Shown here: positions 4,217-31,194 of the stretch, piece by piece | How the letters are laid out: each line of letters begins with the position of its first letter | Numbering within the stretch: the stretch's first letter is position 1 | Source of the DNA: Gammaproteobacteria bacterium | Lineage (GTDB): Bacteria; Pseudomonadota; Gammaproteobacteria; SZUA-152 | DNA length: 40,354 bases | Reading direction: 5' to 3' | Assembly: GCA_021647705.1 (NCBI GenBank) | Contig: JAKIUF010000042.1 | Coordinates: 1-40,354 of the forward strand | The notes under the pieces: generated by a model | The model's database searches: none | Told to the model about the DNA's origin: nothing | What the model saw: only the letters and a program-made list of their open reading frames with translations | Translations under genes and position numbers: made by a program

Positions 4217-4225
4217 TAAAAGCTC

Positions 4226-4307
4226 GTAGGGTGGGCACGTAGTTTGTGCCCACGCGTTACAGAAACTTCGAATTTTCCGCGTGGGCAAAAAAGTGTGCCC
4301 ACCCTAC
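4226..4307. repeat. Double-hairpin palindromic repeat between jetC and jetD
   Basis: Two hairpins in opposite orientation begin with GTAGGGTGGGCAC and end with GTGCCCACCCTAC. The first folds GTGGGCAC with TGTGCCCAC, and the second folds GTGGGCA with TGCCCAC. The same unit is found at 17540-17609 and, in variant form, at 70-327. It starts 10 bp after the jetC stop and ends 37 bp before the jetD start. It probably arrived after the operon formed and may change the jetC:jetD expression ratio through RNA structure; that effect is inference. Confidence 0.85.
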
Positions 4308-4344
4308 CTGATTTAGTGCTTTTAAAACAAAGGCCATATTAACA

Positions 4345-14292: not shown

Positions 14293-14358
14293 TGTATTTC
14301 CCCCAGGGATAGGAACTTTACTAACTGAACCTGATGGTCCATACTAAATTCAAATGTT

Positions 14359-14413
14359 CCCCCCCAATGACAAGAGCCCCATCGGCTCTTACCGCAAGGT
14401 ATAGTTGGGGGGG
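14359..14413. repeat. Nested hairpin with C7/G7 arms between DUF3800 and hsdR
   Basis: Outer arms are CCCCCCCAA (14359-14367) and TTGGGGGGG (14405-14413). An inner hairpin is AAGAGCC, a 5-base loop, then GGCTCTT (14372-14390). There is no U-tract, so it is not a classical terminator. It lies in the 148-bp gap before hsdR and could attenuate transcription or mark an old insertion junction. The function is unknown. Confidence 0.5.
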
Positions 14414-14440
14414 TCACTTTTTTAGCCTTCATGAATTTCA

Positions 14441-15112
14441 TCAGTAGTACCGTTGGGTTCCCGTCTTAAAAATCTCGAATTCACTGTGTAACGCATCCTT
14501 GATCTGGTCGTAATAGTACGTTTCGCCTGTATCCCATTTTCGATAAATAGCCCAATTGCAATAATCTGCCACTTGTAACCCATAATGGGATCGGGATGCC
14601 TGATGCAGAACGCGATACTTCACCTCTGCGGGTAACATGGCTTTCAATGCCTGCTTGACACCTTTTTCCACCGCCTTGCGTTTCTTTTGATGAGGAATCG
14701 TATCGGTAATTGCGATGATTTCACTGTAGCCATTCAAATGCTCAAAAACATGCCTGAGTAAATAACCCAGCATTTCCGGATAGAAGCGATGATCGTTTCT
14801 TAATGGTGGTTTCGTTTTAGCTTTTTCCACAATCAGGCTGTCAATACGCAAACGGGTTTGATGGTTATGCAAAATGCCAAATAAACGATCACGAAGATAA
14901 CGGTTATCATCGGCGCAATGAAAATATTCCACGTTCCGACCAAATTCCAGCAATTCATGCCGGTAGTCATCCCAAAGGTCACGTACTGCAAAGGGACGAT
15001 GCATAGCGACACTTGTCAGGGTAAAATAACGCGTCCCCGTTGGTGAAAAATCGAAATTTCCCCCTTCATCCAGAAAAATATAAAGGCAGCGATTGGCCAT
15101 TTCTGTCGTCAA
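14441..15112 (-). CDS. DUF3800 domain protein
   Basis: The protein belongs to the DUF3800 family, a predicted RNase H-like fold of unknown activity that is frequent in defence islands and mobile DNA. The N-terminal motif YIFLDEGGNFDF supplies the conserved acidic residue, and the C-terminal GLQVADYCNWAIYR supplies the second conserved Asp. The frame opens with TTG at 15112, but the ATG at 15100 (MANRCLYIFLDEGG) is closer to the conserved start and gives 219 residues. It sits between a truncated old hsdR 5' end and the intact hsdR, as if it entered the operon by recombination. The 148-bp gap to hsdR is unusually long for this operon. Confidence 0.85.
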   Translation of the reverse strand: MTTEMANRCLYIFLDEGGNFDFSPTGTRYFTLTSVAMHRPFAVRDLWDDYRHELLEFGRNVEYFHCADDNRYLRDRLFGILHNHQTRLRIDSLIVEKAKTKPPLRNDHRFYPEMLGYLLRHVFEHLNGYSEIIAITDTIPHQKKRKAVEKGVKQALKAMLPAEVKYRVLHQASRSHYGLQVADYCNWAIYRKWDTGETYYYDQIKDALHSEFEIFKTGTQRYY

Positions 15113-15243
15113 GTGGTTGTCTCCACGTTAACTCGCCGTTGTTTCATTGCCTCATCAAGTGGTAGGTAGGCATAACCCATGTTTATCAAAAGCTGCAAGG
15201 TAGGGATATGGGAGCTGAAGAATTTTTTGGTTTTGGGGATCAT
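15109..15243 (-). pseudogene. Truncated 5' end of a second hsdR
   Basis: This 44-codon frame starts MIPKTKKFFSSHIPTLQLL and matches the intact HsdR N-terminus (MIPNTKELFSSHIPALQLL) at 28 of the first 36 residues. Similarity stops after KQR (residue 36, near 15135). Its ATG overlaps the rhuM stop as ATGA, the coupling expected of a real downstream operon gene, so this was once the true hsdR start. The ~78% identity means the copies come from diverged alleles and not from a recent tandem duplication. The DUF3800 frame begins right at its end. Confidence 0.85.
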
Positions 15244-16280
15244 TTCTTGTTCCTAGGTTCCTTTTGACCAAGGAATTTGAGCACGCGATCAAAATCCGAT
15301 TCAAACAATCGATCCTGGACAATCCGATATTTTTCAAACTCGCTTTCGGCAAAGCCCTTGGCAATCTCCGCAGTTACCTTACCGCTGTGTTGTAAAATAT
15401 CCCGTTCATCAAATTCCAGGAATTTGTCCAGTCGCGTCGCCCAGTCTTCCATGGTCATGGGAATTTTTCGTTTGGCGCGGTCTTCTGCAAGTTCCAGATA
15501 GGCGTTGATGATTCGTCCCAGGGATTCAAGCTCATCGGCCATCAGATAATTTTTTGCAACGGATACATCAGTTTTGAGGATTTTGCCTTTCGGGCTGTTT
15601 TCCCAACTTATTAACCCCATGTGTTTTTTGCGGGCATCCGCTCGTTCTACGATCAGTTCTGCAGCGGTGTATCCGTGAATGGAAAAATGCAACTTGTTTT
15701 GAATCTTGGCAAAAAATTCTCGCGTGGTGGGGGCATCCTTGTTGTAGTCCACGCTGGTGGCATAGATGTCAGTGATTTTCTGATAAAATCGTCGTTCACT
15801 GAGCCGTATTTCACGGACTTCTTCCAGCAATCGCTCGAAATAATCCTCGTTGAGAAATGTGCCATTTTCCATGCGTTTTTTGTCCAGCACATAACCTTTT
15901 ATTGCGAAATCACGCAACACCTGTGTGGCCCACTGACGGAACTGTGTCGCCTTTACCGAGTTGACCCGGTAGCCGACGGAGATGATGGCATCAAGGTTGT
16001 AAAAGCGTGTGTGATAGGTTTTTCCATCTGCGGCAGTATGTGCAAAATTTGCACATACTGAATCCTGATCTAACTCCCTGTTTTTAAATATATTTTTTAG
16101 GTGCTTGGTCATGACGGAACGTTCCACCCCGAATAATTCGGCCATCAGTTTCTGGGTAAGCCATATGCTCTCTTCGGCTACCCTCACTTCGACACTATTC
16201 TCTCCAGCTTGCGAGGTGAAGATCAAAAACTCCACTGTACTGTTACGGATTTGCATTTTTCCGGGCTTGTTTTTTTTCAT
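15240..16280 (-). CDS. rhuM: RhuM family protein
   Basis: The 346-residue protein matches the RhuM family, first described as a virulence-associated protein in Salmonella pathogenicity islands and common inside type I restriction operons. The N-terminal half carries the DNA-binding-like segment WLTQKLMAELFGVERSVMTK (~40-60) and the FYNLDAIISVGYRVNS motif (~92-107), which resembles phage KilA/Bro-type domains. The C-terminal half is helical and charged. The biochemical role is unknown. It starts 3 bp after hsdS, and its stop overlaps the truncated hsdR start (ATGA), so it is tightly embedded in the operon. Confidence 0.92.
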   Translation of the reverse strand: MKKNKPGKMQIRNSTVEFLIFTSQAGENSVEVRVAEESIWLTQKLMAELFGVERSVMTKHLKNIFKNRELDQDSVCANFAHTAADGKTYHTRFYNLDAIISVGYRVNSVKATQFRQWATQVLRDFAIKGYVLDKKRMENGTFLNEDYFERLLEEVREIRLSERRFYQKITDIYATSVDYNKDAPTTREFFAKIQNKLHFSIHGYTAAELIVERADARKKHMGLISWENSPKGKILKTDVSVAKNYLMADELESLGRIINAYLELAEDRAKRKIPMTMEDWATRLDKFLEFDERDILQHSGKVTAEIAKGFAESEFEKYRIVQDRLFESDFDRVLKFLGQKEPRNKK

Positions 16281-16283
16281 GAC

Positions 16284-17552
16284 TTAGCCATCCACCTTCA
16301 CTCGTCGCTTGCCGGTGAGCAGTTGTTGCATGAGAGCCTTTTTTTCCTGCTTCAGACAATCGAGTTTTTGTTGCAGGGTTGTGGTTTCTTTGTCAGCAGT
16401 CGTTAGCAGGGCAGCGATTTTTTGTTGTTCCGGGTAAGATGGAAGTGATATTTTCAGATTTAAAAGATCTTTGGGGTTTACCCGTCTGGCTTTTCGTCCA
16501 CCATTTGCCAGACTTAAGTTGGCAGAGTAAAACGCCTCTCTTGAAACAAAATTAATAAACCATACCGGCTCTACACCGGTTTTGAAGTCAAATGCTGGCA
16601 AATCAAGAGTTGATTCAAATCCATCCAGTTTTTTGGGGATAATGCCAAAAGCACCATTAAGAAAATCCAGCTTGCTGTAGATGAATTGTCCGGCCTTTCT
16701 TTTGTAATACTTGGTTGATTGACTCCCTTGCCGTTTTTCATTCTTTGGAACGACACCCTGTCCATACAACTTTATCGTTATTTTTTGAGCGACATCACCC
16801 GTTGTGCCAGGGATACGGCTTTCTACGATCAGCTTTTCTAACGGCGTATTTTTCCATTCTTTTTCAAACTTTGGCAGTCGCCGTTTTCCTGTCAACAACT
16901 GCTGCATCAGCGCCTTCTTTTGTGCCTTGCTGTTTTTAATTAGATTTTCGACGGTTTCGATAGCCTTGTCCCAGGAAGAAAGAATGCGGGCTATTTTCTT
17001 TTGTTCATGAAGAGGAGGTAGCAGTATTGGGGTTTTTTCAACAATTGGTTTGTTGATTTTTACCATTGTTCTGCTGCTGCCAGCGGCACAGTTTTTAAAA
17101 TATCCACGAATGAAAGAAGACTTTAATTTCGCTGCTATGAATCCAGCATCAACAAGACTTTCATTCACTCGAAAGCGCATCATTAGATCAGGGTATGAGC
17201 AATTATTTATTTCGCCTTTGAATAATATGGAACGACCTACTTTATCCGGTGTATTAGAGCGGCTAATCAGGAAATCACCAGGATGTAAGCGACAGTTAAG
17301 CACTTTTTGTGTGGCTTCGACTGGTTTGATCTCGCTAGCAATCAAGCCATTATCTCCAAGTGCTCCGAGACCTAAAACCCAATGTCCAGTATTCTTCTCT
17401 GCGGCATTTGGCGAGTAGCCATTTTTTATACCACCATCTACGATATTTTTTAGCATTTCCATCTGCCAGCCTTCAGGAACCATAACGTAATTCCTTATGT
17501 CGGGAGTTAAACCGAACGAATCCGTAAAAGTTAATTGGCGTAGGGTGGGCAT
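16284..17552 (-). CDS. hsdS: Type I restriction enzyme, full-size S (specificity) subunit
   Basis: HsdS recognises the two half-sites of the target DNA. The protein has the classic two-repeat plan: target-recognition domain 1 (~24-175), conserved helix 1 (~178-228, ending ALMQQLLTGKRR), domain 2, and conserved helix 2 (~370-418, again ending ALMQQLLTGKRR). The ATG at 17552 lies inside the palindromic repeat at 17540-17609, which would encode the first residues. A more natural start is the ATG at 17483 (MVPEGWQMEML), preceded by a GGAAT element and beginning where S subunits usually do. The repeat may have replaced the native leader. rhuM follows after 3 bp. Confidence 0.93.
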   Translation of the reverse strand: MPTLRQLTFTDSFGLTPDIRNYVMVPEGWQMEMLKNIVDGGIKNGYSPNAAEKNTGHWVLGLGALGDNGLIASEIKPVEATQKVLNCRLHPGDFLISRSNTPDKVGRSILFKGEINNCSYPDLMMRFRVNESLVDAGFIAAKLKSSFIRGYFKNCAAGSSRTMVKINKPIVEKTPILLPPLHEQKKIARILSSWDKAIETVENLIKNSKAQKKALMQQLLTGKRRLPKFEKEWKNTPLEKLIVESRIPGTTGDVAQKITIKLYGQGVVPKNEKRQGSQSTKYYKRKAGQFIYSKLDFLNGAFGIIPKKLDGFESTLDLPAFDFKTGVEPVWFINFVSREAFYSANLSLANGGRKARRVNPKDLLNLKISLPSYPEQQKIAALLTTADKETTTLQQKLDCLKQEKKALMQQLLTGKRRVKVDG

Positions 17553-17609
17553 GCTTTTTTGCCCACGCGGATGATGTACATGTGGGCACAGAAAACGTGC
17601 CCACCCTAC
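17540..17609. repeat. Double-hairpin palindromic repeat between dinD and hsdS
   Basis: The ends are GTAGGGTGGGCA and TGCCCACCCTAC, with two inverted hairpins (17544-17566 and 17582-17604) about 15 nt apart. This is the same family as 4226-4307. It overlaps the longest hsdS frame and separates hsdS from the dinD stop at 17649. Confidence 0.85.
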
Positions 17610-17648
17610 GGTTAACGCTACGCTCTTGTTTTGCCATTGAATCAGATT

Positions 17649-18500
17649 TCATTCTTGACCATTCCCCAGTTTTTTCCGTTGGTGCTCAAGCTGCTTGATG
17701 CCTTGCTCGGGTGTGGGCAAGTCTTCTGGCATGGTGCCTCCCAGTTCCTTGATAGTTTGGCGTACTTTGGCACCGACTTTGCGGTGAGTTTGGTTGGCTT
17801 TGCTTTTGCCTTTGATGGCATCTCGCTTGAGCTTGTCTTCTGTCTGGGTGGCGCGGAACAGGTTGGCAGCCAGTTCAGTGCTGCCCATGTGGTCGAGAAT
17901 TTTCTGGCTTTTCTTCAAGCCTTTGTGCTGATGGATAGCTTTGTTGTCGAGACCGCCATACAGTCCTTTATAACCGTGGTTTTGGAAGATGGCGTAGTCC
18001 AGGCCGCTTTTTACACCGGCATTCCGGGCGACGGCTGCGAGTTGTTTGTTGTGGGTTGCCAGTTCATTGTGCAACATCAGTCGTTTCTGATCTTCAGATA
18101 GTTGCTGGAAGCCGGTATCGTCTTTCAGTTCCTGGCGTCGGGTTTGAATGGCAAAGTAGGTCTGGCCATTGGCGATAACCAGTTTGTTGGCATCGGCGTT
18201 TTGTACAATGAGATAGCAGGCGTAGCGGGAAAGTGCGTAAGACGCCACTTTACGTTGTGCTCCGGATCCGAGATCGACCATCTCGTGCATCTCCACGAAA
18301 TGGTCGGAGACCGTTTGCTCACTGTTTTTACAGGCTTTTTTTGCCTTTTCTATGACCGGAGAGAAGTTCCTGAATTCAGCATAATCCAGAGTTTTTGCCA
18401 GTTCACGAGCCATCCAGAATTCTTCGTTATATCGGTTGAGGCGTTTGATATCTTCAAAACTCTTGTGTGTGGTCTCTATTTGATTGTTTTTTGCCATCAT
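17649..18500 (-). CDS. dinD: DinD-like DNA-damage-inducible protein
   Basis: The 283-residue protein matches DinD. E. coli DinD is SOS-induced and inhibits RecA strand exchange. Recognisable parts are the N-terminal EEFWMARELAKTLDYAEFRNF (Bro-N-like) segment, the GAQRKVASYALSRYACYLI block, and the conserved C-terminal region with GLYGGLDNKAIHQHKGL and ILDHMGSTELAANLFRATQT. Two ATGs in tandem open the gene after an AGGAACACG element. It lies between hsdM and hsdS on the same strand, 21 bp after hsdM, so it should be expressed with the restriction system. I see no LexA box immediately before it, which fits operon control. Confidence 0.9.
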   Translation of the reverse strand: MMAKNNQIETTHKSFEDIKRLNRYNEEFWMARELAKTLDYAEFRNFSPVIEKAKKACKNSEQTVSDHFVEMHEMVDLGSGAQRKVASYALSRYACYLIVQNADANKLVIANGQTYFAIQTRRQELKDDTGFQQLSEDQKRLMLHNELATHNKQLAAVARNAGVKSGLDYAIFQNHGYKGLYGGLDNKAIHQHKGLKKSQKILDHMGSTELAANLFRATQTEDKLKRDAIKGKSKANQTHRKVGAKVRQTIKELGGTMPEDLPTPEQGIKQLEHQRKKLGNGQE

Positions 18501-18521
18501 CGTGTTCCTGTTTTCATCGCT

Positions 18522-20045
18522 TTATGCGTGATAACCCAATTCCTTCAAATATCCGTCCATTTCCTCTTCCAGTCCGGCCAGTTCTGCCTTTAGTTTTTCT
18601 CGTTCGGCGCGCACGGCCATAAGATCGATTTCTTCCTCTTCTTCAAAGGTATCTACATAGCGGGGGATGTTGAGGTTGAAGTCGTTCTCGCTGATTTCTT
18701 TCGGGGTGGCGAGGTAAGCGTATTTATCCACGAATACCCGCTGGCGGCAGGTGTCGATGATTTTCAGGATGTCTTCAGTGCGCAGGATGTTCTGGTTTTT
18801 GCTGTCGGCATATTCGCGGCTGGCGTCAATAAACAGCACTGTGTCGTCAGTCTTTTTCTTTTTGAATATGAGAATGGCGGCGGGGATGCCGGTGCCGTAA
18901 AACAGTTTTTCCGGCAGGCCGATGACGGTGTCGAGCAGGTTCTCTTCAATGAGTTTACGACGGATTTTGCCTTCTGCGGCACCCCGGAATAGTACGCCAT
19001 GGGGTACGACAACGCCCATACGCCCGGTATCGGGTTTGAGGGTTTCGATCATGTGCAGGATAAAAGCGTAGTCGCCTTTGGTTTTGGGCGGAATGCCCCG
19101 GCGGTAGCGGCTCCATTTGTCGTTTTCTGCTTCGTCATGGCCCCATTTTTCCAGGGAGAAGGGCGGGTTGGCGGTGACGATGTCGAAGTGCATCAGGGAT
19201 TCGTCGGTATTGAGCAGTTTGGGGTTGCGCAGGGTGTCGCCCCATTCGATGCGGTGGTTGTCTTCGCTGTGCAGGAACATGTTCATTTTGGCCAGTGCCC
19301 AGGTGGAGCCGATGGCTTCCTGGCCATAAAGGGCGTATTTTTTTGAGCCGTTGAAGTTTTCACGAATTTTGCGGCCGCATTTCATTAACAGGGAGCCGGA
19401 GCCGCAGGCGGGGTCGCAGATTTTATCGCCTTCCCGGGGTTCCAGTAGTTCGGCGATGAGGTCGGAGACTTCGGGTGGGGTGTAAAATTCACCGGCTTTT
19501 TTCCCGGAGGTCGCGGCGAAGTTTTTGATGAGAAATTCGTAGGCGTTGCCAATGACATCCAGATTGCCGATCAGTGAGGGGCTCAGGTTTAATTCGGGTT
19601 TGTTGAAGTCTTCCAGTACGTGACGCAGGATTTCGTTTTTCTGTTTGTCATCCCCCAGTTTGTTGGAGTTGAAGCTGATGTCCTGAAAAACATCGCGCAG
19701 TTTGCTGATGTTGGCTTCTTCAATGGCATGCAGGGACTGGTCGATACGTTCACCGTTACCGGGCTCGTGGCGGTGTTCGAAGAGGTTGTAAAAACTGGCT
19801 TCCTTTGGCAGTACAAAACGTTCAGTTTTCATCAGTTCTGTAATCAGTTCCGGTTCGTCGCCGTGCTCGGTCTGGTATTTGTCGTAGTGGTCCTGCCAGA
19901 CATCGCTGATGTATTTGAGAAACAGCAGGGTCAGGACGTAGTCTTTGTAAATGCTGGGGTCCACTACACCCCGGAAGCTGTCGCAGGCTCCCCATACCGC
20001 TTTGTTAATGGCGTCCTGACTGATTTGATGGTTGTGTTCGTTCAT
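18522..20045 (-). CDS. hsdM: Type I restriction enzyme, M (methyltransferase) subunit
   Basis: HsdM transfers methyl groups from S-adenosylmethionine to adenine at the HsdS target and forms the core of the restriction complex. The 507-residue protein has the N-terminal helical HsdM domain (FRGVVDPSIYKDYVLTLLF), the SAM-binding motif DPACGSGSLL near residue 210 and the catalytic NPPF near 292. The Glu/Lys-rich C-terminal tail (~465-507) is likely the helix that contacts HsdS. It follows the half-size hsdS gene by 16 bp and precedes dinD by 21 bp. Confidence 0.97.
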   Translation of the reverse strand: MNEHNHQISQDAINKAVWGACDSFRGVVDPSIYKDYVLTLLFLKYISDVWQDHYDKYQTEHGDEPELITELMKTERFVLPKEASFYNLFEHRHEPGNGERIDQSLHAIEEANISKLRDVFQDISFNSNKLGDDKQKNEILRHVLEDFNKPELNLSPSLIGNLDVIGNAYEFLIKNFAATSGKKAGEFYTPPEVSDLIAELLEPREGDKICDPACGSGSLLMKCGRKIRENFNGSKKYALYGQEAIGSTWALAKMNMFLHSEDNHRIEWGDTLRNPKLLNTDESLMHFDIVTANPPFSLEKWGHDEAENDKWSRYRRGIPPKTKGDYAFILHMIETLKPDTGRMGVVVPHGVLFRGAAEGKIRRKLIEENLLDTVIGLPEKLFYGTGIPAAILIFKKKKTDDTVLFIDASREYADSKNQNILRTEDILKIIDTCRQRVFVDKYAYLATPKEISENDFNLNIPRYVDTFEEEEEIDLMAVRAEREKLKAELAGLEEEMDGYLKELGYHA

Positions 20046-20061
20046 ACCGTTTCGTGCTCCG

Positions 20062-20661
20062 TTAAATGTCTTGCAGGTGCTGTTCGTGGGTGCAGAGTGT
20101 CTGCCGGGCGATAGTGTTCATCATCTGTCGGCGGTTATCCACCAGTGCTTCCAGGAGTTGTGTTTCTTTTTTGGTGAGCCGGTCTACGGCAATGATTTTC
20201 TGTTGTGTTTCCAATGGCGGGATGACAACGGGCAATGTTGCCAGCTCTGATTTTTTGATGTTCCGTAAAACGCTGCCTTGTGCCAGACGTGAAAAATAGC
20301 TCTGGGCGGGTGTTTGGTTGATTTGCCATGCGAGAAACTCCGGCAGCAAATCGATGGAAGGTTTGATGCGGATCTGAAAAAAGTGGGGTGTGCAGACGGT
20401 TTTTTCGTTCAATTGGTCAACGTAAACCGCAAAATTATTATTGCCGCGTGCAACAAAAAGAAGGTCGCCTGTCATCAGCCAGTCAGGCGTTTTTTTGCCC
20501 GGTAGCTCAACATGCGCGAGATCATTTGTTTTCAAACCCTGTTCGAGTGCGGCGTCACGCATTTGAATGACGGCGATGTTTCCCGGCTGTTGGGTTTTGA
20601 TGCTGCCTCTGAACGGGTAGCCGGGCTCAATGGCGGCAGTTTTTTCCAGGAGTAATATCAT
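20062..20661 (-). CDS. Half-size type I S subunit (single recognition domain)
   Basis: The 199-residue protein has one target-recognition domain (~1-140, with DLLFVARGNNNFAVYV and GSVLRNIKKSELATLPVVIPP) and one C-terminal helix (ETQQKIIAVDRLTKKETQLLEAL). It is about half an ordinary HsdS. Half-size S proteins can act as dimers in engineered and some natural enzymes. It is the first gene of the operon, before hsdM, whereas the full-size hsdS lies after dinD. The recognition domain is unlike either domain of the full S by eye. It may provide a second specificity or act as a regulator; this is inference. Confidence 0.85.
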   Translation of the reverse strand: MILLLEKTAAIEPGYPFRGSIKTQQPGNIAVIQMRDAALEQGLKTNDLAHVELPGKKTPDWLMTGDLLFVARGNNNFAVYVDQLNEKTVCTPHFFQIRIKPSIDLLPEFLAWQINQTPAQSYFSRLAQGSVLRNIKKSELATLPVVIPPLETQQKIIAVDRLTKKETQLLEALVDNRRQMMNTIARQTLCTHEQHLQDI

Positions 20662-20704
20662 TTGTTGAATCCGTTCGTATTAAGTGCGTCATTTAGTTAG
20701 GCGC

Positions 20705-20733
20705 AATGTATTTGCTTTTTTTACGGAAGTCAA
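20705..20733 (-). promoter_or_regulatory. Likely promoter of the hsd operon
   Basis: On the minus strand TTGACT (20728-20733) is followed after 17 bp by TACATT (20705-20710), a good sigma-70 match 44 bp before the first ATG. Just upstream, TTGCGTC (20743-20749) and GATGCAA (20759-20765) form an inverted repeat with one mismatch that could bind a regulator. Confidence 0.55.
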
Positions 20734-20824
20734 TAGTAATTATTGCGTCTATTGAAAAGATGCAATTAATATGATTGGTTCTTTTAGGCGGGAAATCTGC
20801 GAAGACTGAAGTTTTTACAATTAT

Positions 20825-22213
20825 TTATTCCAACATTTGATTGATTTTTTTGAGGTCTCCAATACCCAACACGCCGGCACTGTATTTTAAATTGGCATGA
20901 TGCAACACGTTATCATGTTGTGCCTGTGCAAGCCGCCTGCGCAGTGTGTATAACATTGAGCGAGCATTGATCACATCAAAGCTGGTTCGCTGTCCCGCTT
21001 CGTAACCGGCAACATTGGCTTTTACGGCAATTTTTTGTGATTCAATGGATTGTTTCATTTCGTGAATACGTGTTACGCCACCGATGAGAATAAAATAGGC
21101 GTCACGAACTTGCCTTTCAACCAGGCTTTTTTGTTGTTGCAGAGAAATGTCCACCTGGTTTTTATAATATTTTGCTTGGCGCACACGGGAACTTATCGCT
21201 CCACCCTGATAAAAATTCCATTTCACTCGTGCGGTGATGGAGCTCGTCTCTAATTCTACGCCTGTATAATCCAAGTCTAAGTCATTGTAATAATTATACG
21301 TGGCAATAAGCGAAAGATTGGGATAGCGCGAACTGCCTTGTCTTTTAATGCCAATGCGTGCCATTTGAAGTTGTTGTCGAGCAATGTGTAATCGATGGTT
21401 ATTTTCATGTGCTGTTTTAATCCAAAAATTAGGATCATTCGGACGGGGTAAGCCGAAAGTGGCGTTCATGTTGAGCTTGTCGAGATCATCGTGCAGCTGA
21501 CCGGTAATTTCACGCAATGTTTCATTGGTTATGGACAAACGAATATAAGCAGAAGTCCGGTTGGCAGATGCCAAGTCATAACCTGCTTTGGCTTCACTGA
21601 CATCAATCTTTGCACTAATACCTATCTCGAAACGATACTCCATGTTCTCAAGTTGTTTTTTAAGTGTTTGCAACTCTTGTTCTCGATAGCGGATTTCTTT
21701 TTTGGCAGAAAGCACGCCCAAATATGCAACGATAACCCGAAGCAGTAGAAGATTGTCCATTTCATCATATTGCTTATCTGCCAAGGCATGTTGCGCCCAC
21801 GCTTGTTCGCTATTAATAGTTGCATCATAATCAAATAAAGACTGCGTAATGCTGACACTGTAGCCACGGCTAGCGTATTCAGGGCTGCTATTAAACAGCA
21901 TCGTATTATTAAAGTTATGAACCGTGCGCTCCTGTACATTTTGTGTATAAAAAGTACTGGCAGAAATTTGGGGTAAAAATCGAGCGTTACTCTGTTCAAC
22001 AATTTCCTGAGAGCCAGCACGAATCACCTTTGCTTTTTTTATCACATGATCCGAGCGTTGTGCTAAATCATAAATTTCTTCAATATCTATGGCTAACGCA
22101 GGCCTTATTATCAACAATAAAGCCATAATACATAATAGTCTCACACACATTATTTCCGGAAAAAATACATTTTTTTCACGGCTTATTTTAGTCACCAAAA
22201 ATTTACAGAACAT
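20825..22213 (-). CDS. TolC-family outer-membrane efflux protein
   Basis: The protein belongs to the OEP/TolC family, which forms trimeric channels across the outer membrane and periplasm. The frame opens at 22213, but the ATG at 22150 gives a clear signal peptide (CVRLLCIMALLLIIRPALA, then IDIEEIYDLAQRSD) and is the likely start (441 residues). Two OEP repeats are visible: one begins near IYDLAQRSDHVIKKAKV, the second near NDPNFWIKTAHENNHRLHIA. The motif GYEAGQRTSFDVINARSML is typical of the second repeat. It is the last gene of the pqqD/ATP-grasp cluster, 39 bp after the urea-transporter fusion. No ABC or RND pump or periplasmic adaptor adjoins it. Confidence 0.9.
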   Translation of the reverse strand: MFCKFLVTKISREKNVFFPEIMCVRLLCIMALLLIIRPALAIDIEEIYDLAQRSDHVIKKAKVIRAGSQEIVEQSNARFLPQISASTFYTQNVQERTVHNFNNTMLFNSSPEYASRGYSVSITQSLFDYDATINSEQAWAQHALADKQYDEMDNLLLLRVIVAYLGVLSAKKEIRYREQELQTLKKQLENMEYRFEIGISAKIDVSEAKAGYDLASANRTSAYIRLSITNETLREITGQLHDDLDKLNMNATFGLPRPNDPNFWIKTAHENNHRLHIARQQLQMARIGIKRQGSSRYPNLSLIATYNYYNDLDLDYTGVELETSSITARVKWNFYQGGAISSRVRQAKYYKNQVDISLQQQKSLVERQVRDAYFILIGGVTRIHEMKQSIESQKIAVKANVAGYEAGQRTSFDVINARSMLYTLRRRLAQAQHDNVLHHANLKYSAGVLGIGDLKKINQMLE

Positions 22214-22252
22214 AACTTTATTTTTTGTGCCAAGAGAATAACGGGAAAAATA

Positions 22253-24475
22253 TTAAATGGCCGACATGTCTGGGCTGGTTTCTTCAATTTGCTGCTCCCG
22301 CCAGCCAGGAATACCATGGTCTTTTATTAAACCATTATTCAACAATTGGGCTCGCCAGATATGTCCATTAAATGACAACGACATGTCATTACTGACAAAA
22401 GCTCTGTCTAATTCTATTTCAGCTTCCGCAATCAACGTGCGCGGTCCGATTTTTAAGGTATGAGTACTGTGCTGTAACCACATACCTTTCGTGGGATCCC
22501 AGTGGCGTCGATATTGGCTGTCGAGCCCTGCGCCTAGAATAAATCGAAAGACCAACAATATTTTTTCCCAACTGTGCAGGGGTAATAATTTTACCGCAGG
22601 CGAGTCCTGCCATTGTTGCGCAAGCTCACTTAATGGCGTCAGGCCATACGATAACAACAGCATATCCAGCAATTTATCCGCAGGCCCCTGTTGGTCATAA
22701 AAGGCAAGCACACCATTGGCCTCTTCAAAGGCCACACTGGCTCCAGAATCACTGACTAAACGAAACTGGCCCATAAGAGTGACCTCAACCAGTAATCGGC
22801 ATACTTTGTTTGTATTGGTTTCCGGGTCGATTATTTTGTACGTAAAATACCGCCCGATAGGGAGGTGCTGGTGAATGTTGGAAAGCCCCCGCGCGTGATC
22901 TGCGGCCTGAATGCTCATATGCTCTTCTGGGCGACTGATCAACTTATAGTGCGTACCCTTATTTACAATCTGATTCCCACTATTCTCCAATACACTGCAA
23001 AAATGAAACAATTGTGTAGGACATCCCAGCGCGACTTCTTTTTGTAGATGAATATGCAGATGGGGCTGGGGGGAGCGTCCTGAATTACCGCAAGCAGCCA
23101 ACTCGGTTTTTGGCGTCACGTATTCACCAACATTGACTTTGACACTTAAAAACTTCAAATGCGCCAACATTACACAGTGGCCAGTATTCAGTCGAATGAG
23201 AATGTAGTTACCCCAATTATTATCCACGTTAACAGCACCAGGATTATTGTCTGGTACAGAATTTACGACGGCAACGATTTCCCCATAAACCGGTGAAGAA
23301 ATGGGTAAGCCATAACAAAAATAATCTTTCAGTAGAAAACCCTGAGATCGATAACTCTGCCCTTTTTCCGTAATATAAAAATCAACAGCATGATTCCAGG
23401 GAGCCTTGTGTGTATGTCGGCCATCAAATCCCTGATATACGTTCCAGGTGCCGTAAAAAGGTAACAATAACGGAATGCTGTTGGGCTCTCCACAACGGCT
23501 GCGTGTTAAGCGCCGTTGCTCATAATCACTCTCCGGCAGGCTCGGTGTCGCACATAACCACGGTGATTTCATACTGCTGCGCCGCTGAAGTACCGCAATG
23601 CACATTAATGTGCTGACAACGAAAGGTAAGGCCATTACCGGTAAATGGTAAACCAGCATTAAGTCCTGCATGGCGATAACAAATAATACAGAAGCGGCAA
23701 CGCCGAACATGGCGTAAACAAAACTGCTACGATCAGGCACCGTATAAATGCCACCTACGGCTATTGCCGTTAATGAAAAATTAAAGCACGTCCATACATA
23801 AAATCCCGGAGCATGAGTGCCGGATAACATGTTCAACAATAAAAGCCCGAATAAAAACCCCGTTATGGCTAAAAAACCTATATAACGGGACTGAATCACG
23901 ATGGCTAAAAAAATCAGCAAGCCCAATACGGGATTAGGTGAAAACAGGGTGGCGGAAAGTGTACTAAAAAATAAATCCACCCAGGGATGAATCCAAACAG
24001 ACGCAGGTACCCCTAATCCAACACCACCAAATTCCACTCCGGTAAAATCCACCATCGGCACATAACGCCGAACCACCAACGACAGAATTGCCGCACTCAC
24101 TACAAATGACAAACACAATGCGGGAAGATGGGACCGCCGCCACATCATGTCACTAATCAGAATCGATAAAAATGTCGTGAGTATTCCACCCACAATAACA
24201 AAAGCCCAGAATTGACCATTGAGATGAAACAAGGCACCAAGCGATAAACCTGCCAAAGTGCTGTTGAGAATGTGTGCTTTACTACTGATATGCGGTAGCT
24301 TTAAAAACACACAAATTAACATGCTGGTGAAAGCCGCCAACAAGCCCGCCGCCCCGGTTTGAGGCGACCAAAATGTCAATGCTATAAACAAGCCACCGAG
24401 CAACGGATGCTCCAGAAACAATATCCCGGAGTATGCTTTAGCGATGTCCTTAAATTGACATCTATTTGCAATCAT
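22253..24475 (-). CDS. Urea-transporter domain fused to an M23-type peptidase
   Basis: This 740-residue inner-membrane fusion starts with a urea-transporter domain (~1-305) of about ten hydrophobic helices. The helix set includes GAAGLLAAFTSMLICVFL, NSTLAGLSLGALFH, NPVLGLLIFLAIVI and the Thr/Pro/Gly-rich turns of the family. A peptidase M23 (LytM-like) domain follows at ~335-490, with HAVD near 364 and HLHIH near 472. The final ~240 residues match nothing I know. The first metal motif is H-x2-D and not the usual H-x3-D, so activity is uncertain. It lies between the decarboxylase (17 bp away) and the TolC-like gene. It may carry a small product or substrate, with the C-terminal part in the periplasm. 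Confidence 0.85.
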   Translation of the reverse strand: MIANRCQFKDIAKAYSGILFLEHPLLGGLFIALTFWSPQTGAAGLLAAFTSMLICVFLKLPHISSKAHILNSTLAGLSLGALFHLNGQFWAFVIVGGILTTFLSILISDMMWRRSHLPALCLSFVVSAAILSLVVRRYVPMVDFTGVEFGGVGLGVPASVWIHPWVDLFFSTLSATLFSPNPVLGLLIFLAIVIQSRYIGFLAITGFLFGLLLLNMLSGTHAPGFYVWTCFNFSLTAIAVGGIYTVPDRSSFVYAMFGVAASVLFVIAMQDLMLVYHLPVMALPFVVSTLMCIAVLQRRSSMKSPWLCATPSLPESDYEQRRLTRSRCGEPNSIPLLLPFYGTWNVYQGFDGRHTHKAPWNHAVDFYITEKGQSYRSQGFLLKDYFCYGLPISSPVYGEIVAVVNSVPDNNPGAVNVDNNWGNYILIRLNTGHCVMLAHLKFLSVKVNVGEYVTPKTELAACGNSGRSPQPHLHIHLQKEVALGCPTQLFHFCSVLENSGNQIVNKGTHYKLISRPEEHMSIQAADHARGLSNIHQHLPIGRYFTYKIIDPETNTNKVCRLLVEVTLMGQFRLVSDSGASVAFEEANGVLAFYDQQGPADKLLDMLLLSYGLTPLSELAQQWQDSPAVKLLPLHSWEKILLVFRFILGAGLDSQYRRHWDPTKGMWLQHSTHTLKIGPRTLIAEAEIELDRAFVSNDMSLSFNGHIWRAQLLNNGLIKDHGIPGWREQQIEETSPDMSAI

Positions 24476-24492
24476 TAATGAAGTAACCCCAG

Positions 24493-25932
24493 TTATGCAG
24501 GTTTTACTTCAAGCACAGTAACTGTCGCCGGCGCATCTGAAAAAGGGTCAGCCAAATGAGCTGGCAAGCGGTCAAGCGAATTCATTGACTGTAAATTTTC
24601 AGCCTCACGCACCACAGATACCGTTTGATCTTCATGCACCATCACCACATTAGGTCGGTATTCGATAAATTGCATCCATTGTGTATTGTTGTAAGCTCCC
24701 ACTTGTTTAATCACCATGGCCTCACCTAATTTTAGAGGCGGAAGCTTTATACTTTTTCGTACTACATCAATATTCATACACAACGGACCATACAGCACAG
24801 TTTCTTCAGCCACACCCGTCAATTCTCGTGTAGGTACAATTTTGTGGTCATACCAAAAGCTGGTAAATAATAAATTTAAGCCAGCATCCATTATCGAAGC
24901 CTTTCGACCATCTGGTAATTGTTTGTTAGCAACAACAGAGGTAATTAACACTTCTGCATCATCAATCATGGCGCGACCCGTTTCCAATATCAGCAACAGG
25001 TATTTTTCTCTGTGTGCGCATCGGGCTTTCATTTCTTTTGATAATGCATCACAAATGAGTGTTGCGTATTCTTCAATCGATGGAATGTATTGCTCAGGCG
25101 GCAAATAAGCACCTTGTAATGAGTTCATTGATGCCAAACCACCGCCGATATCAATGTAATCAATAGAACAGTTTGTTTTTGATTCCACCTCATCCATAAA
25201 TTGACACATGATTTCAATTTGGCTGACATAGGCTCGACCATCGGTGATGAATGTTCCGATATGACTATGTAATCCAACCAAATTCATATATTTACTGTTT
25301 GAAATATGTGCAGCGGCATCAAAAGCCTGGCCTGATTCAATATTAAAACCAAAACGACCCCAGTTTTCGGTATAACCCGTATCAAAATTAAGCCGGATAG
25401 CAACAGGAATCGATTTTTTCTTTTCGTTAGCAATTTCATCGATCAAAAAAAGTTCGTCCAGGTGATCAATATGCAGTAATGCGCCTTCATCAATAGCCTG
25501 ATTGAGTATTTCCCTGGACTTGTGTGGGCCATTGAAAATTATTTTGTGCCCTGGGACACCTAAATTTCTGGCCTTTTCATACTCAAATTCAGACACCACT
25601 TCAGCCCACAAACCTTCCTGATGAAAGACATTGCAAACTGCATTTAAGTAATTGGTTTTGTACGACCAGCCAAATTGTACATGTGGATAACGTGAACTAA
25701 AGGCACGTTGAATGCGACGGGAATTGCCTCGCTGTTGTTTTTCAGAAATAACAAAGAGAGGTGAACCATATTTTTCAATCAGCTCCTGAACCGGAACGCC
25801 ATCAATATTACTTTGAATATCGGTGAAAGGTCGTGAACCAAATTTGTTAATCGTACCTGAGTTTAACGGGTGAATGGATGGTTTGTTCCATAAAACATCT
25901 TTTTTATCGTCTTGTAATATTTTTTTACTCAT
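24493..25932 (-). CDS. LysA-like PLP-dependent decarboxylase
   Basis: The 479-residue protein is a fold-type III PLP enzyme of the diaminopimelate/ornithine decarboxylase group. K92 (GWSYKTN) is the expected Schiff-base Lys. HSHIG near 219 and the IDIGGG loop near 267 bind PLP phosphate. ETGRAM corresponds to the EPGR motif, and Cys near 383 (YGPLCMNID) matches the active-site GPxCxS/D. All look intact. An extra ~45 N-terminal residues precede the usual start. The operon context (PqqD-like, ATP-grasp, transporter, TolC) suggests a biosynthetic substrate other than diaminopimelate, perhaps a C-terminal amino acid or a ligated product; this is inference. A 259-bp gap separates it from the ATP-grasp gene. 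Confidence 0.9.
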   Translation of the reverse strand: MSKKILQDDKKDVLWNKPSIHPLNSGTINKFGSRPFTDIQSNIDGVPVQELIEKYGSPLFVISEKQQRGNSRRIQRAFSSRYPHVQFGWSYKTNYLNAVCNVFHQEGLWAEVVSEFEYEKARNLGVPGHKIIFNGPHKSREILNQAIDEGALLHIDHLDELFLIDEIANEKKKSIPVAIRLNFDTGYTENWGRFGFNIESGQAFDAAAHISNSKYMNLVGLHSHIGTFITDGRAYVSQIEIMCQFMDEVESKTNCSIDYIDIGGGLASMNSLQGAYLPPEQYIPSIEEYATLICDALSKEMKARCAHREKYLLLILETGRAMIDDAEVLITSVVANKQLPDGRKASIMDAGLNLLFTSFWYDHKIVPTRELTGVAEETVLYGPLCMNIDVVRKSIKLPPLKLGEAMVIKQVGAYNNTQWMQFIEYRPNVVMVHEDQTVSVVREAENLQSMNSLDRLPAHLADPFSDAPATVTVLEVKPA

Positions 25933-26020
25933 GACACACCTGTAATAAATTAAACTAAAAAACTAAGCCAGTGTTGCTGACGTTTTTCTGAGTGCTAAGG
26001 ACAATTAATTAAATAACTTT

Positions 26021-26143
26021 TTAATTAATTGAGAGTTTTGTGTATGTGGATTCCAATATTTTACTGTGGGGAGGTTTTAATGCTTCTATCGTGGTATGTC
26101 GGTGCTTATATTTTTCAAGAAGAGAATTGTAAAACATAATCAT
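26021..26143 (-). CDS. Possible 40-residue peptide between ATP-grasp and decarboxylase
   Basis: A minus-strand frame opens with ATG and runs 40 codons. It starts MIMFYNSLLEKYKHRHT and ends KILESTYTKLSIN. It is charged and amphipathic, with no Cys and no hydrophobic signal. There is no clear Shine-Dalgarno sequence. It lies in the one long gap of the cluster, on the same strand. It could be a substrate peptide, a small subunit or a chance frame; AT-rich DNA makes chance frames common. Confidence 0.3.
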   Translation of the reverse strand: MIMFYNSLLEKYKHRHTTIEALKPPHSKILESTYTKLSIN

Positions 26144-26191
26144 TCAATCTATTTTTAAGGATAATATGTAAATATTATTTAATTTACATTA

Positions 26192-27265
26192 CTAGCCTGG
26201 TGTCGGTGTTCCACCTTCGATGGCCACTGACTCAAAAGATGAAATAGGCACAATAGATTCCATTGCATGTCGAATAAACATTACGCCAGAATTTTTAGAA
26301 GGAGGCTCAGATGTCGGTTTTCCCGCGATTCTCTTGAGTAATTTTATGGGTAAGTTTTGGCCAACTCCTTGCGTCAAATACACCCAGGCAGGAAATCTTG
26401 GGTTAATTTCAATAAGGTGATATTTGCCTTTTTTGTCGCGCATCACTTCAATTTCAAGCGGTCCTTTCCAGCGCAACGTGTTAATGACTTCAAGGCAGGC
26501 TTGATAAAGACCTTCATCATAAATGCTGATTCCCGCACTGGCCTTTCCTTTTTCAGTGAGTAAGATCTTTTTCATCATTACCAGCCCATCAACATTTCCT
26601 TCCCCATCGCCTAAGGCGGCAACGTTGTACTCCTCGCCAGCAACAAATTTTTGCACAATAACCGGAAACCCCCATTGAGCCGTAATCGTTTGAAATGCCG
26701 CAATGCCTTGCGCCTGTGTATAGACAATTTTGGCATCAAAAAAAATGCCTTTTACCACCAGGGGGTATTCCCAGTCTTTCATTTCACAATCTTTAAAAAA
26801 TTGTGAACTGTTAATATTAATGGATTCAGGGCATGTCATTTTCCCCTTACCAACCAATTGTGATAGCTGGTCTTTATTTCTTTTTGTCAGTTGTTCAAAG
26901 CTTGGCAGGTAGGTTTTTATACCCAATTTTTCAAACATAGGCACCAAATTTATCATCCCAGCCAATTCAGAATCCAGACAAGGAATCAACACATCAATTT
27001 TTTCTTTATCATGAATTTCTTTTATCCGTTCGACATGTTCAAAACTTTCACTGGAGGGATAAGGCAACAGATAACCTGCGTCACAGAGTTCGTTATGATA
27101 AATTCCTGCATCAAGCGCGTCATAACCCAGACCAATAATACGGCCATTAAACTCAGGGGATTCTTTCAAGCACCGTGCTATAGCCAAGCCTGGGCCAGGA
27201 TTGTCTGGCTGAGAATTCATGCCGGTAATAGCCACTGTTATATTCATTGTCATTACTAGGTTCAC
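26192..27265 (-). CDS. ATP-grasp ligase
   Basis: The 357-residue protein has the ATP-grasp fold of the carbamoyl-phosphate-synthase-like (PylC/CarB-type) group, which joins a carboxylate to an amine or thiol using ATP. A nucleotide-binding-like start (ITVAITGMNS) and pre-ATP-grasp domain (DVLIPCLDSELAG) are followed by the ATP-binding core VVKGIFFDAK near 169 and VQKFVAGEEYNV near 203. The Mg-binding ELEV/EIN pair (LEIEVMRD, LIEINPRFP) lies near 268-288. The start overlaps the pqqD-like stop by 4 bp (ATGA). The direct coupling to a PqqD-like protein suggests it modifies a peptide bound by that partner. The exact substrate is unknown. Confidence 0.9.
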   Translation of the reverse strand: MNLVMTMNITVAITGMNSQPDNPGPGLAIARCLKESPEFNGRIIGLGYDALDAGIYHNELCDAGYLLPYPSSESFEHVERIKEIHDKEKIDVLIPCLDSELAGMINLVPMFEKLGIKTYLPSFEQLTKRNKDQLSQLVGKGKMTCPESININSSQFFKDCEMKDWEYPLVVKGIFFDAKIVYTQAQGIAAFQTITAQWGFPVIVQKFVAGEEYNVAALGDGEGNVDGLVMMKKILLTEKGKASAGISIYDEGLYQACLEVINTLRWKGPLEIEVMRDKKGKYHLIEINPRFPAWVYLTQGVGQNLPIKLLKRIAGKPTSEPPSKNSGVMFIRHAMESIVPISSFESVAIEGGTPTPG

Positions 27266-27573
27266 AAATAAAAATGTCTATTCAGGCTACTGGAAAACTC
27301 CAGGATGTCTCTTTCAATGACATGTAAATCAGTTTTATATTTTTTGTGCTGTTTATTCACAATGATGTCGATATTGTTTTCCTGCAAAAACAATTCTAGT
27401 AGCTCAAGGCCGGTTTCATTCACCGTAAAGCTCTTGCCTGTGCCTGGGTCAAAAACAAAACCATTCTTACTAATGGCCAAATGTTGCAGATATTTATTAT
27501 CCAAAATATCAGGGCGCTTACATATCGGTACCAATGACACTTGATTTACTGCCTGACTGACAACTGCTTCCAT
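27262..27573 (-). CDS. PqqD-like peptide-recognition protein
   Basis: The 103-residue protein resembles PqqD, the RiPP recognition element that presents leader peptides to modifying enzymes. The family core is GFVFDPGTGKSFTVNETGLELLELF (~38-62), with the usual D-x-x-T-G-x-x-x-x-x-N-x-x-G pattern. A helical tail follows (~65-100). AAGGGG lies 8 bases before the ATG. It overlaps the ATP-grasp gene by 4 bp. PqqD-like proteins also occur in sugar and ATP-grasp operons without a known peptide, so the presence of a peptide substrate is inference. Confidence 0.8.
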   Translation of the reverse strand: MEAVVSQAVNQVSLVPICKRPDILDNKYLQHLAISKNGFVFDPGTGKSFTVNETGLELLELFLQENNIDIIVNKQHKKYKTDLHVIERDILEFSSSLNRHFYL

Positions 27574-27709
27574 AATAAAGCCCCTTAAATATTACATTGC
27601 TTAGCGTTAACCCTAGAATAGACGGCGTATACCGAGTATCACTACTGAATTAACCTGCTATTTTTGTGTACAACAAATTTTGAACATACTTCAATACTCA
27701 TAAATTCAC

Positions 27710-27912
27710 TTAATCTACAGCCAGCTCGACATTCAGGGTCATTTTAATCAGCATTGCCTGAATTCGTTAAGGTCTTTTTCTGTGTTGATGTTTTTAGCGA
27801 CTGCCTAGGCTAGGGATTGTAGACCTTTACTTTTCATCGTTTCCTATCTTTTCCCGTATTGGGGCTAGTGATAAGCTGTTACACATATTTCAGTACAGGG
27901 TCGGGGTTAGTC
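27710..27912 (-). mobile_element. IS256-family insertion-sequence relic (left end and transposase start)
   Basis: On the minus strand, ATG at 27837 opens MKSKGLQSLA, a TAG stop, then AVAKNINTEKDLNEFRQ. After a one-base shift it continues MLIKMTLNVELAVD (27754-27713). This is the characteristic N-terminus of IS256/Mutator-type transposases (SLAEAVAKNIKTEKDLNEF). A GATAGGAAACG ribosome-binding element precedes it. About 75 bases upstream carry a plausible IS left end (GACTAACCCCGACCC near 27896-27912). The rest of the element is gone. It lies 137 bp before the pqqD-like start, between that gene and the possible Met-Gly peptide, so it may have interrupted or moved the cluster's 5' region. Confidence 0.8.
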
Positions 27913-27995
27913 TCATATCAGGTGTAAAGCAATATTAGTGATTTGTAGTGTTTCCTGTATGTAGATAGATGCGGGCGACAACGCATTGTAAGGGT

Positions 27996-28067
27996 TTACA
28001 TACCACCGCTACCCATGCCGCTACCCATGTCGCTACTACCCATATCAAAATCTTGTCCCATACCCAT
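27996..28067 (-). CDS. Possible Met-Gly-rich micro-peptide
   Basis: A 23-codon frame reads MGMGQDFD, then MGSSD, MGSG and MGSGGM, then TAA. The ATGGGTAGC unit is repeated at DNA level. The same frame is open 15 codons further upstream (from WVCLKFNGRPKRKFI) but offers no ATG/GTG/TTG. No clear Shine-Dalgarno is seen. The possible promoter at 28208-28236 would start transcription about 135 bases upstream. It lies first on the strand of the PqqD-like/ATP-grasp cluster, where a precursor peptide would be expected, but an IS256 relic now lies between them. An overlapping 88-codon frame (27935-28201) covers the same bases. It may be a real precursor, the tail of a decayed gene or a simple repeat. 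Confidence 0.35.
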   Translation of the reverse strand: MGMGQDFDMGSSDMGSGMGSGGM

Positions 28068-28207
28068 AATAAATTTTCGTTTAGGTCTACCGTTAAATTT
28101 AAGACATACCCATTATCCATTAGTTTGATGAGTACATTTTCAGCCAAAAACAATATTGTATTTTTTTGTGTTTTATTATCCTTCTTCCAGATAATAAGCA
28201 CGCCGAA

Positions 28208-28236
28208 AACTTAGCAGCGGGGTGGTTTATTGTCAA
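28208..28236 (-). promoter_or_regulatory. Possible sigma-70 promoter
   Basis: On the minus strand a perfect TTGACA (28231-28236) is followed after 17 bp by TAAGTT (28208-28213). It would drive the Met-Gly-rich frame and, if transcription crosses the IS256 relic, the downstream cluster. The -10 box is weak. Confidence 0.4.
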
Positions 28237-31008: not shown

Positions 31009-31194
31009 CTTAGGAATGGAACACAATAACTTATCTAGTAAGTGGCGCTCTGATTTAATTCGTATTCGTTCGTTCTGATTGAACAAAAGTGCAGGAATAG
31101 TCGTTCTATTTCGAGCTTTTGTGATTGAAGAACGGGCGAAGACGGGTTGAAGTAGAGATGTCAGTTGTATGAGTTATTGTGTTCCATTCCTAAG
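31009..31194. mobile_element. 186-bp MITE-like inverted-repeat element upstream of sucA
   Basis: The ends are perfect 23-bp inverted repeats at 31009-31031 and 31172-31194, starting CTTAGGAATGGAACAC and ending GTGTTCCATTCCTAAG. Inside, further imperfect pairing continues (CGTTCT...ACAAAAG against CTTTTGTG...AGAACG), so nearly the whole element can fold into one long hairpin. It has no coding capacity. It lies 82 bp before sucA and could influence the sucA promoter or leader. I see no certain target-site duplication. Confidence 0.75.

Follow-up and report, generated by a model that had tools for sequence, protein, structure and literature searches.

Several described systems resemble parts of the locus analysed here. 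Class II microcins and microcin B17 are Gly-rich exported peptides, PqqD domains are known as peptide-binding chaperones, and dual-function small RNAs form a class of RNAs of their own. Our locus shares a short Gly-rich peptide and an ABC exporter partner with the microcins, a short repetitive ORF upstream of PqqD and ATP-grasp genes with the corresponding modified peptides (RiPPs), and a short structured transcription unit holding a micro-ORF with the dual-function RNAs. The nearest known sequence is the GroEL/Hsp60 tail, (GGM)4M, which likewise consists of Gly-Met repeats with Met at the end. In two papers these C-terminal repeats are described as functionally important (PMC11978752) and as adopting polyproline II helices (PMC12571646).

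The micropeptides reported here differ from all of these. Unlike the GroEL tail, they have a gene to themselves, complete with promoter, Shine-Dalgarno site and untranslated regions (UTRs); their Gly runs between Met residues are often longer, and Arg, Gln, Asp-Ile and Gly-only versions exist. We rejected an identity as C-terminal chaperonin extensions, since the frames stand alone with their own start and GroEL tails were separated out. Unlike the microcins, they have no double-glycine leader and mostly no Ser or Cys, and we noticed no modification enzymes beside intact copies. The exporter carries ABC_membrane and ABC_tran domains without a C39 peptidase by Pfam (two exporters scanned), and its scores against NCBIfam were below every cut-off shown; a class II microcin or other double-glycine-leader bacteriocin was rejected on the leader and the exporter domains. 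We also take the Gly-Met composition to be unlike the usual hydrophobic helix of a type I toxin.

A family of Gly/Met-rich micro-ORFs

The window, by which we mean the whole stretch of 40,354 nt that was analysed, carries on its minus strand at 27996-28067 a frame of 23 codons that reads MGMGQDFDMGSSDMGSGMGSGGM before its stop, with a Gly+Met share of 61%. The preliminary description had seen in it four MG(S) units and a GGM end; the end is as described, and we count five MG dipeptides, three of them MGS. Among the ATG frames of the window that span 18-70 aa, only two reach 50% Gly+Met, and the second fits a nested start of the same micro-ORF. In 100 dinucleotide shuffles of the window no such frame arose, the top fraction being 0.48. 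Upstream of the micro-ORF lie two divergent genes, one chorismate-lyase-like and one for a phosphopantetheinyl transferase.

With the window's own copy included, we found 28 stand-alone loci, distributed over 21 genomes and five gammaproteobacterial families, that encode mostly Gly/Met-rich peptides of 13-70 aa where complete; the assignment of these genomes to Gammaproteobacteria rests on contigs matching G004 and G011. The window's genus g1 contributes G000 (the window's genome), G001, G002, G003, G004, G005 (two loci), G006 (two), G007, G008 (two), G010 (two) and G011, other genera of the same family, f1, contribute G012, G014, G015, G016 (three), G018 and G021, and the families f34, f37, f124 and f101 contribute G056, G059 (two), G260 and G338. 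Some copies are imperfect in the assemblies: several lie at contig ends (two of those in G016 are cut by them and the one in G001 is at one), the locus of G003 spans two contigs, those of G056 and G338 contain N gaps, and the frame of G014 is broken. When 229 genomes of the class were searched with an MGGGM-stop pattern, two genomes matched, G002 and G059, both of which are members; G059 belongs to another family than the window and has two gene copies. Further loci were found by following the exporter described below and by a GMGGGM pattern.

Nine close loci (the window, G002, G003, G004, two in G006, G007 and two in G008) were compared directly. Their ORFs span 13-58 codons and are kept in the same register, and only the G006 C336 copy differs at its start; in the relatives the MG start is immediately preceded by a Shine-Dalgarno site. 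The peptide of G007 is MGMGQDCGMGGGGMGGGM, that of G002 has 58 aa that are all Gly or Met except one Gln, and that of G008 begins MGMGQGGGMGDIDFGDIDMG. Across 19 ORFs from the close and other loci, Gly or Met accounts for 641 of 745 codons (86%), and the Gly codons vary freely at the silent third base (GGC 255, GGT 183, GGA 53, GGG 2). The composition is not uniform: the G338 peptide consists of Met and Gly only, that of G021 is Arg-rich, one G005 version is Gln-rich, one G010 peptide has an Ala/Pro insert, and Asp-Ile-rich versions also occur.

The same comparison dealt with two other frames that the preliminary description had raised. A frame of 88 codons does overlap the micro-ORF at 27935-28201 on the minus strand, yet stops interrupt it in each of the eight loci from relatives. 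In G003 and G007 these lie near its 5' end only, whereas the other six have them deeper in the frame, either additionally or instead; it is not the conserved frame. The upstream frame, thought to be leader-like and to join the micro-ORF after a one-base shift, has stops in all eight loci as well (in two only near the 5' end); the relatives have no leader in frame, and the supposed leader stretch coincides with a covarying 5' UTR hairpin. Both the 88-codon frame as a gene and a frameshift-joined leader are excluded by these stops. An accidental open frame in non-coding DNA would be in keeping with the shortness of the ORF and with the missing Shine-Dalgarno site of the window, but the conservation in register and the shuffled controls refute it, and we give it practically no weight.

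Searches beyond these relatives returned nothing comparable. A Shine-Dalgarno site followed by MGGGMG matched 90 stretches of viral contigs. Among those with an ORF shorter than 150 aa or with Gly+Met above 0.5, most matches belong to the 3' portion of a longer frame, the others are short or unrelated frames, and none looks like a stand-alone Gly/Met gene; on these a phage origin was rejected. With MGMG in place of that motif, 70 of 369 genomes of the class matched, including the member G002, and no short stand-alone Gly/Met gene was seen among the 30 loci listed. With MGGxMGG, 398 genomes of the phylum gave two matches, neither a family member in the ORF scan, and a pattern match in G307 was not a member either. 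Pfam and NCBIfam gave nothing for five peptides at E up to 1, although such low-complexity queries are hard for HMMER, and tblastn against plasmids with the window peptide, a low-complexity query with the BLAST filter on, gave no match. Six Rfam matches over seven loci all stayed below the gathering score. In titles and the starts of abstracts, with little coverage of subscription papers or preprints, the literature yielded papers on GroEL/Hsp60 tails and unrelated work, and no stand-alone bacterial Gly-Met peptide gene. The family appears to be new, and the window copy appears to be a relic of it.

Repetitive Gly/Met sequence was also seen in larger proteins. Locus L130, one of the MGMG matches, holds a Gly/Met/Pro repeat frame of more than 200 residues. 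Several large proteins of the window's family other than GroEL end in or near Gly/Met-rich stretches (L350, L351, L353, L364, L366, L367, L368 and L369), and tails of this kind seem to have proliferated in this lineage. A separate protein of G011 carries a Gly/Met stretch behind what appears to be a signal sequence (L362, 2054-2317 on the minus strand, 2185-2448 on the reverse complement).

The predicted transcription unit

A TTGACA-type promoter on the same strand had been reported upstream of the micro-ORF, and it is both present and conserved. In the window, TTGACA (28236-28231) and TAAGTT (28213-28208) are separated by a 17-nt spacer, TGC precedes the -10 element, and the promoter (28208-28236, minus strand) lies 169 nt upstream of the start; a consensus promoter scan of the window did not list TTGACA-N17-TAAGTT. 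All nine close loci have TTGACA 168-170 nt upstream of the start with the same spacer. Their -10 element is TAGATT, except in three where it is TAAGTT or TAGTTT, and it is preceded by TGC or TGA. The stretch between the chorismate-lyase-like gene and the promoter is itself conserved in G003, G004 and G007 (73-75%).

The Shine-Dalgarno site that the preliminary description had noted as missing is indeed absent: AACGAAAATTTATT at 28068-28081 (minus strand) stands directly before the ATG. This is an exception, since eight of the nine close loci have a site (GGAG in seven and GGGG in one) and 18 of the 19 loci examined have one, the window being the sole exception.

Between promoter and start, a hairpin of ten pairs (28104-28137, minus strand) is kept in the nine loci. 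Over the nine sequences 91% of its cells are paired and five pairs are changed on both sides. Its covariation score was reached by 4 of 500 shuffles and its count of both-side-changed pairs by 23 of 500, and slid versions came nowhere near the real score. Downstream of the ORF, a 3' element of two hairpins is 94% paired over 13 sequences, with six pairs changed on both sides; no shuffle of 500 reached its covariation score and six reached its count of both-side-changed pairs. A measure of further pair types did not exceed shuffles for either structure. The 13 rows were chosen for carrying the motif or its aligned counterpart, and loci without it, such as G018, G021, G056, G059 and G260, were left out, as was the window because an arm is missing. 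What remains in the window, at 27940-27982 on the minus strand, lacks the 3' arm of hairpin 1. RNAalifold predicted the same hairpin 1 and paired the next stretch differently, in place of hairpin 2. The 3' element was not found in every family, and other families keep such an ORF with UTR sequence that is not the same. In 12 of 18 loci a terminator-like hairpin follows the ORF within 300 nt (that of G260 is weak); none was found in the window, G004, G003 (where only 99 nt were available), G006 C236, G018 or G021.

The exporter, the replaced segment and the PqqD/ATP-grasp block

In many of these genomes an ABC exporter gene lies near the micro-ORF. The two are arranged 3'-to-3' in G001, G006, G008, G010, G011, G014, G015, G021, G056, G059 and G338, and also in G002, G003 and G005, where degP and hsp20 lie between them; the order is codirectional in G018 and G260. 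G007 has its exporter on one contig and the peptide gene on another, the latter together with hsp20 and degP. In the four further families (G056, G059, G260, G338), too, the peptide gene adjoins the exporter or lies close to it, in orientations that differ and are mostly convergent. Being mostly convergent, the pair does not form a single operon. An amino-acid attenuator leader peptide would have a codirectional regulated gene downstream; the mostly convergent exporter and the terminator-like hairpins of 12 of 18 loci speak against one, although G018 and G260, among the copies whose neighbours were read, do show a codirectional order. In eight genomes groEL is found on the exporter's stretch, and in four, all of the window's genus, degP and hsp20 are.

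The association extends beyond adjacency. Among the 24 genomes of family f1, 15 have exporter orthologs (at least 47% identity), and none was found in nine (G000, G004, G009, G013, G017, G019, G020, G022, G023), genomes that are 74-100% complete and whose matches are about 30-40% identical. The GMGGGM pattern, applied to whole genomes independently of the exporter, matched 21 of the 24. Stand-alone micro-ORFs found in this way are present in 13 of the 15 exporter-positive and none of the nine exporter-negative genomes (Fisher p = 4e-5, without correction for relatedness among species that are not independent). The remaining matches fall within the tails of GroEL and of further large proteins, in one secreted Gly/Met protein or in short frames unrelated to the family. 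The pattern missed G014 and G021, where variant genes lie beside the exporter, and with these and the degenerate window and G004 copies added the comparison stands at 15 of 15 against 2 of 9 (p = 1e-4). In a tree of the exporter, 26 homologs fall on one side of three outgroup paralogs and the peptide-adjacent ones are spread throughout (the G010 C33 copy was left unlabelled); the peptide gene is linked to this one exporter clade. We also found exceptions. No peptide gene was found beside the exporter copies G012 C211, G016 C15 and G059 C29, which have flank on both sides, and G010 C33, G012 C109, G123 and G150 lie too near contig ends for their neighbours to be judged; G010 C13 has the missing end of its exporter together with a peptide gene. 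For seven peptide genes (G006 C336, G008 C131, G012 C93, three in G016 and G059 C66) the stretch examined shows no exporter, and some of these stretches stop at contig ends. Taken as an association, these results indicate that intact peptides probably work with the ABCB-type exporter. G024 and G181 have more distant exporter homologs, and downstream of these we saw small Gly/Asp-rich ORFs with Shine-Dalgarno sites (L301 1076-1225, beginning MLTKYIIKLHVGRDGDGGG, and L303 1034-1186 on the minus strand, beginning MLTDYVIRVHGRDGDGGG), which may be a sister peptide type.

In the window, the place that the exporter holds in relatives is taken by a PqqD/ATP-grasp block (20797-27812, minus strand), which is shared with G004 and starts about 420 nt downstream of the micro-ORF on the same strand. 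It comprises genes for a PqqD-like protein (27262-27573, with a Pfam PqqD match), an ATP-grasp protein (26192-27265), a PLP decarboxylase of the ornithine/DAP type (24493-25932), a urea-transporter/M23 fusion (22253-24475) and TolC (20825-22213), all on the minus strand. On the left, a specificity-subunit-like stretch (19639-20769) matches, wholly or partly, the sequence to the left of the exporter in G003, G006 and G007; it adjoins the exporter in the first two and is about 2.3 kb off in G007. On the right, 27903-34965 matches the right side of the intact peptide gene of G007. G003 has the exporter together with degP and hsp20 between these flanks, whereas the window and G004 have the block there. 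We found no exporter ortholog in the window's genome (top match 32% identical) or in G004, the other block carrier at this locus. These matches point to a replacement of the exporter segment by the block in the window/G004 lineage.

The peptide genes of this lineage are degenerate. That of G004 keeps its Shine-Dalgarno site and has 13 codons. In the window the Shine-Dalgarno sequence GGAGA has become CGAAA, five positions hold Ser or Asp that are each one G-to-A step from a Gly codon, one arm of the 3' hairpin is gone, and no terminator was seen downstream of the ORF on its strand. We suggest that the gene decayed after the exchange. A near-palindromic dispersed repeat at 31009-31194 of the window recurs next to the exporter and peptide locus of G008, close to the exporter of G007 and, in L008, where the block ends on its TolC side, and it may have helped the replacement. 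Elsewhere in the window, PADLOC identified two genes of a Wadjet-type defence system, JetC and JetD (545-5481), with JetA and JetB presumably before position 545, near or beyond the window edge. We also noted the R, S and M genes of a type I restriction-modification system (11023-20661) with PDC-S05 and PDC-S13 candidates between them and a short extra specificity-like ORF at 20062-20661.

The block itself is widespread. Traced via its decarboxylase, the best 80 of 139 confirmed loci include Gammaproteobacteria, Mariprofundaceae, Cyanobacteria, Persephonella and others; the PqqD-like/ATP-grasp/decarboxylase/urea-transporter-M23 combination spans MAGs of Gammaproteobacteria, Zetaproteobacteria, Aquificota and Cyanobacteria. 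We searched up to 2.5 kb upstream of 81 PqqD or ATP-grasp loci, 74 of which had at least 300 nt of upstream sequence, for Gly/Met-rich precursors. An ORF of at least 11 codons and at least 50% Gly+Met was present only in the window's genome (L001) and G004 (L002 and L008), and no Gly/Met-rich precursor ORF is common to the block loci. Conversely, the homologous frame occurs in G002, G003, G007 and G008, with a close relative in G006, and none of these five genomes has a PqqD/ATP-grasp protein match. In G011, G012, G015, G018 and G001 the block and the peptide gene are on different contigs, so the two are not mutually exclusive.

Interpretation and alternatives

Taken together, our results suggest, with a probability of roughly 60%, that the window frame is a decayed copy of a genuine and apparently undescribed micropeptide gene family. 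The existence of the family, the conservation of the frame, the UTR structures of the close loci, the segment exchange and the loss of the Shine-Dalgarno site are evident at the level of sequence. The intact unit would consist of a promoter, the 5' hairpin, a Shine-Dalgarno site and the micro-ORF, in many cases with the 3' hairpins and an intrinsic terminator; it is apparently monocistronic, and its product would be a leaderless peptide, mostly of Gly and Met. This peptide would partner the ABCB-type exporter, which adjoins groEL in several genomes and would most likely carry it out of the cytoplasm, perhaps for a role outside the cell. In the window/G004 lineage the exporter segment would have been swapped for the PqqD/ATP-grasp block, after which the orphaned gene decayed.

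Other explanations were weighed against this one. The preliminary description was right that a real Met-Gly gene lies behind the frame; its other suggestion, a modified-peptide precursor at the head of the adjacent PqqD/ATP-grasp cluster, has in its favour the short distance on the same strand and a domain that matches PqqD. The block, however, is widespread in genomes that lack the peptide, and the peptide is also found where there is no block; there is neither co-conservation with the modifying enzymes nor a leader and core in one frame, and in the window the Shine-Dalgarno site is lost exactly where the micro-ORF adjoins the block. The neighbourhood stems from the segment exchange, and we rejected the precursor as very improbable. 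The main product might instead be the RNA, a structured regulatory or possibly dual-function molecule in which the Gly-rich ORF is secondary or serves translation-coupled control. The covarying hairpins on both sides of the ORF, the alternative pairings of the 3' element, the long conserved upstream region and the terminator-like hairpins fit this, and conserved RNA structure does lie beside the ORF in the close loci, as judged for the 3' element from the 13 loci chosen for carrying it. On the other side, the ORF stands in frame behind a Shine-Dalgarno site and stays 86% Gly/Met despite lengths of 13-70 codons, other families keep it without the same UTR sequence, and unlike described dual-function RNAs the loci have no Rfam match above the gathering score (seven loci). 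We regard this reading as unlikely.

It is less probable still that the window copy is a divergent gene at work. The promoter and 5' hairpin are retained, its sister in G004 has a Shine-Dalgarno site on a 13-codon version, and the window frame has no internal stop, so weak use is possible; but the Shine-Dalgarno site, the hairpin arm and the terminator are all gone, and so, as far as our searches found, is the exporter ortholog. Similarly improbable is that the peptide is a free mimic of the (GGM)n tail of GroEL, acting in the cytoplasm on chaperonin or stress proteins, with the exporter a mere bystander at the groEL locus. Its composition does resemble the tails, whose importance and polyproline II form are reported in the papers cited (PMC11978752; PMC12571646), and heat-shock genes do lie close by (groEL in eight genomes, degP and hsp20 in four); the Arg-, Gln-, Asp-Ile-rich and Gly-only versions are unlike GroEL tails, however, and the peptide gene tracks the exporter, while groEL should be present in all genomes.

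Returning to the exported micropeptide, we tentatively propose, at somewhat less than even odds, a novel class of secreted, leaderless, ribosomally made Gly-Met or Gly-only micropeptides with an ABCB exporter at heat-shock loci and a highly structured mRNA. By analogy with the GroEL tails, the free peptides might adopt a polyproline II conformation. Met thioethers spaced along such a flexible, polyproline-II-prone Gly backbone could, speculatively, serve as a soft-metal ligand or as a surface or adhesive polymer.

Very short, low-complexity genes are easily missed by gene callers and masked in similarity searches, and for this reason an entire peptide family that has a conserved exporter can go unnoticed. 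Should export be confirmed, the family would represent a type of peptide in which two amino acids make up most of the sequence, and the unassigned exporter that adjoins groEL in several genomes would gain a role open to testing. The window further suggests that an accessory block can displace a probable functional partner and leave behind a peptide gene that then looks like the precursor heading a biosynthetic cluster.
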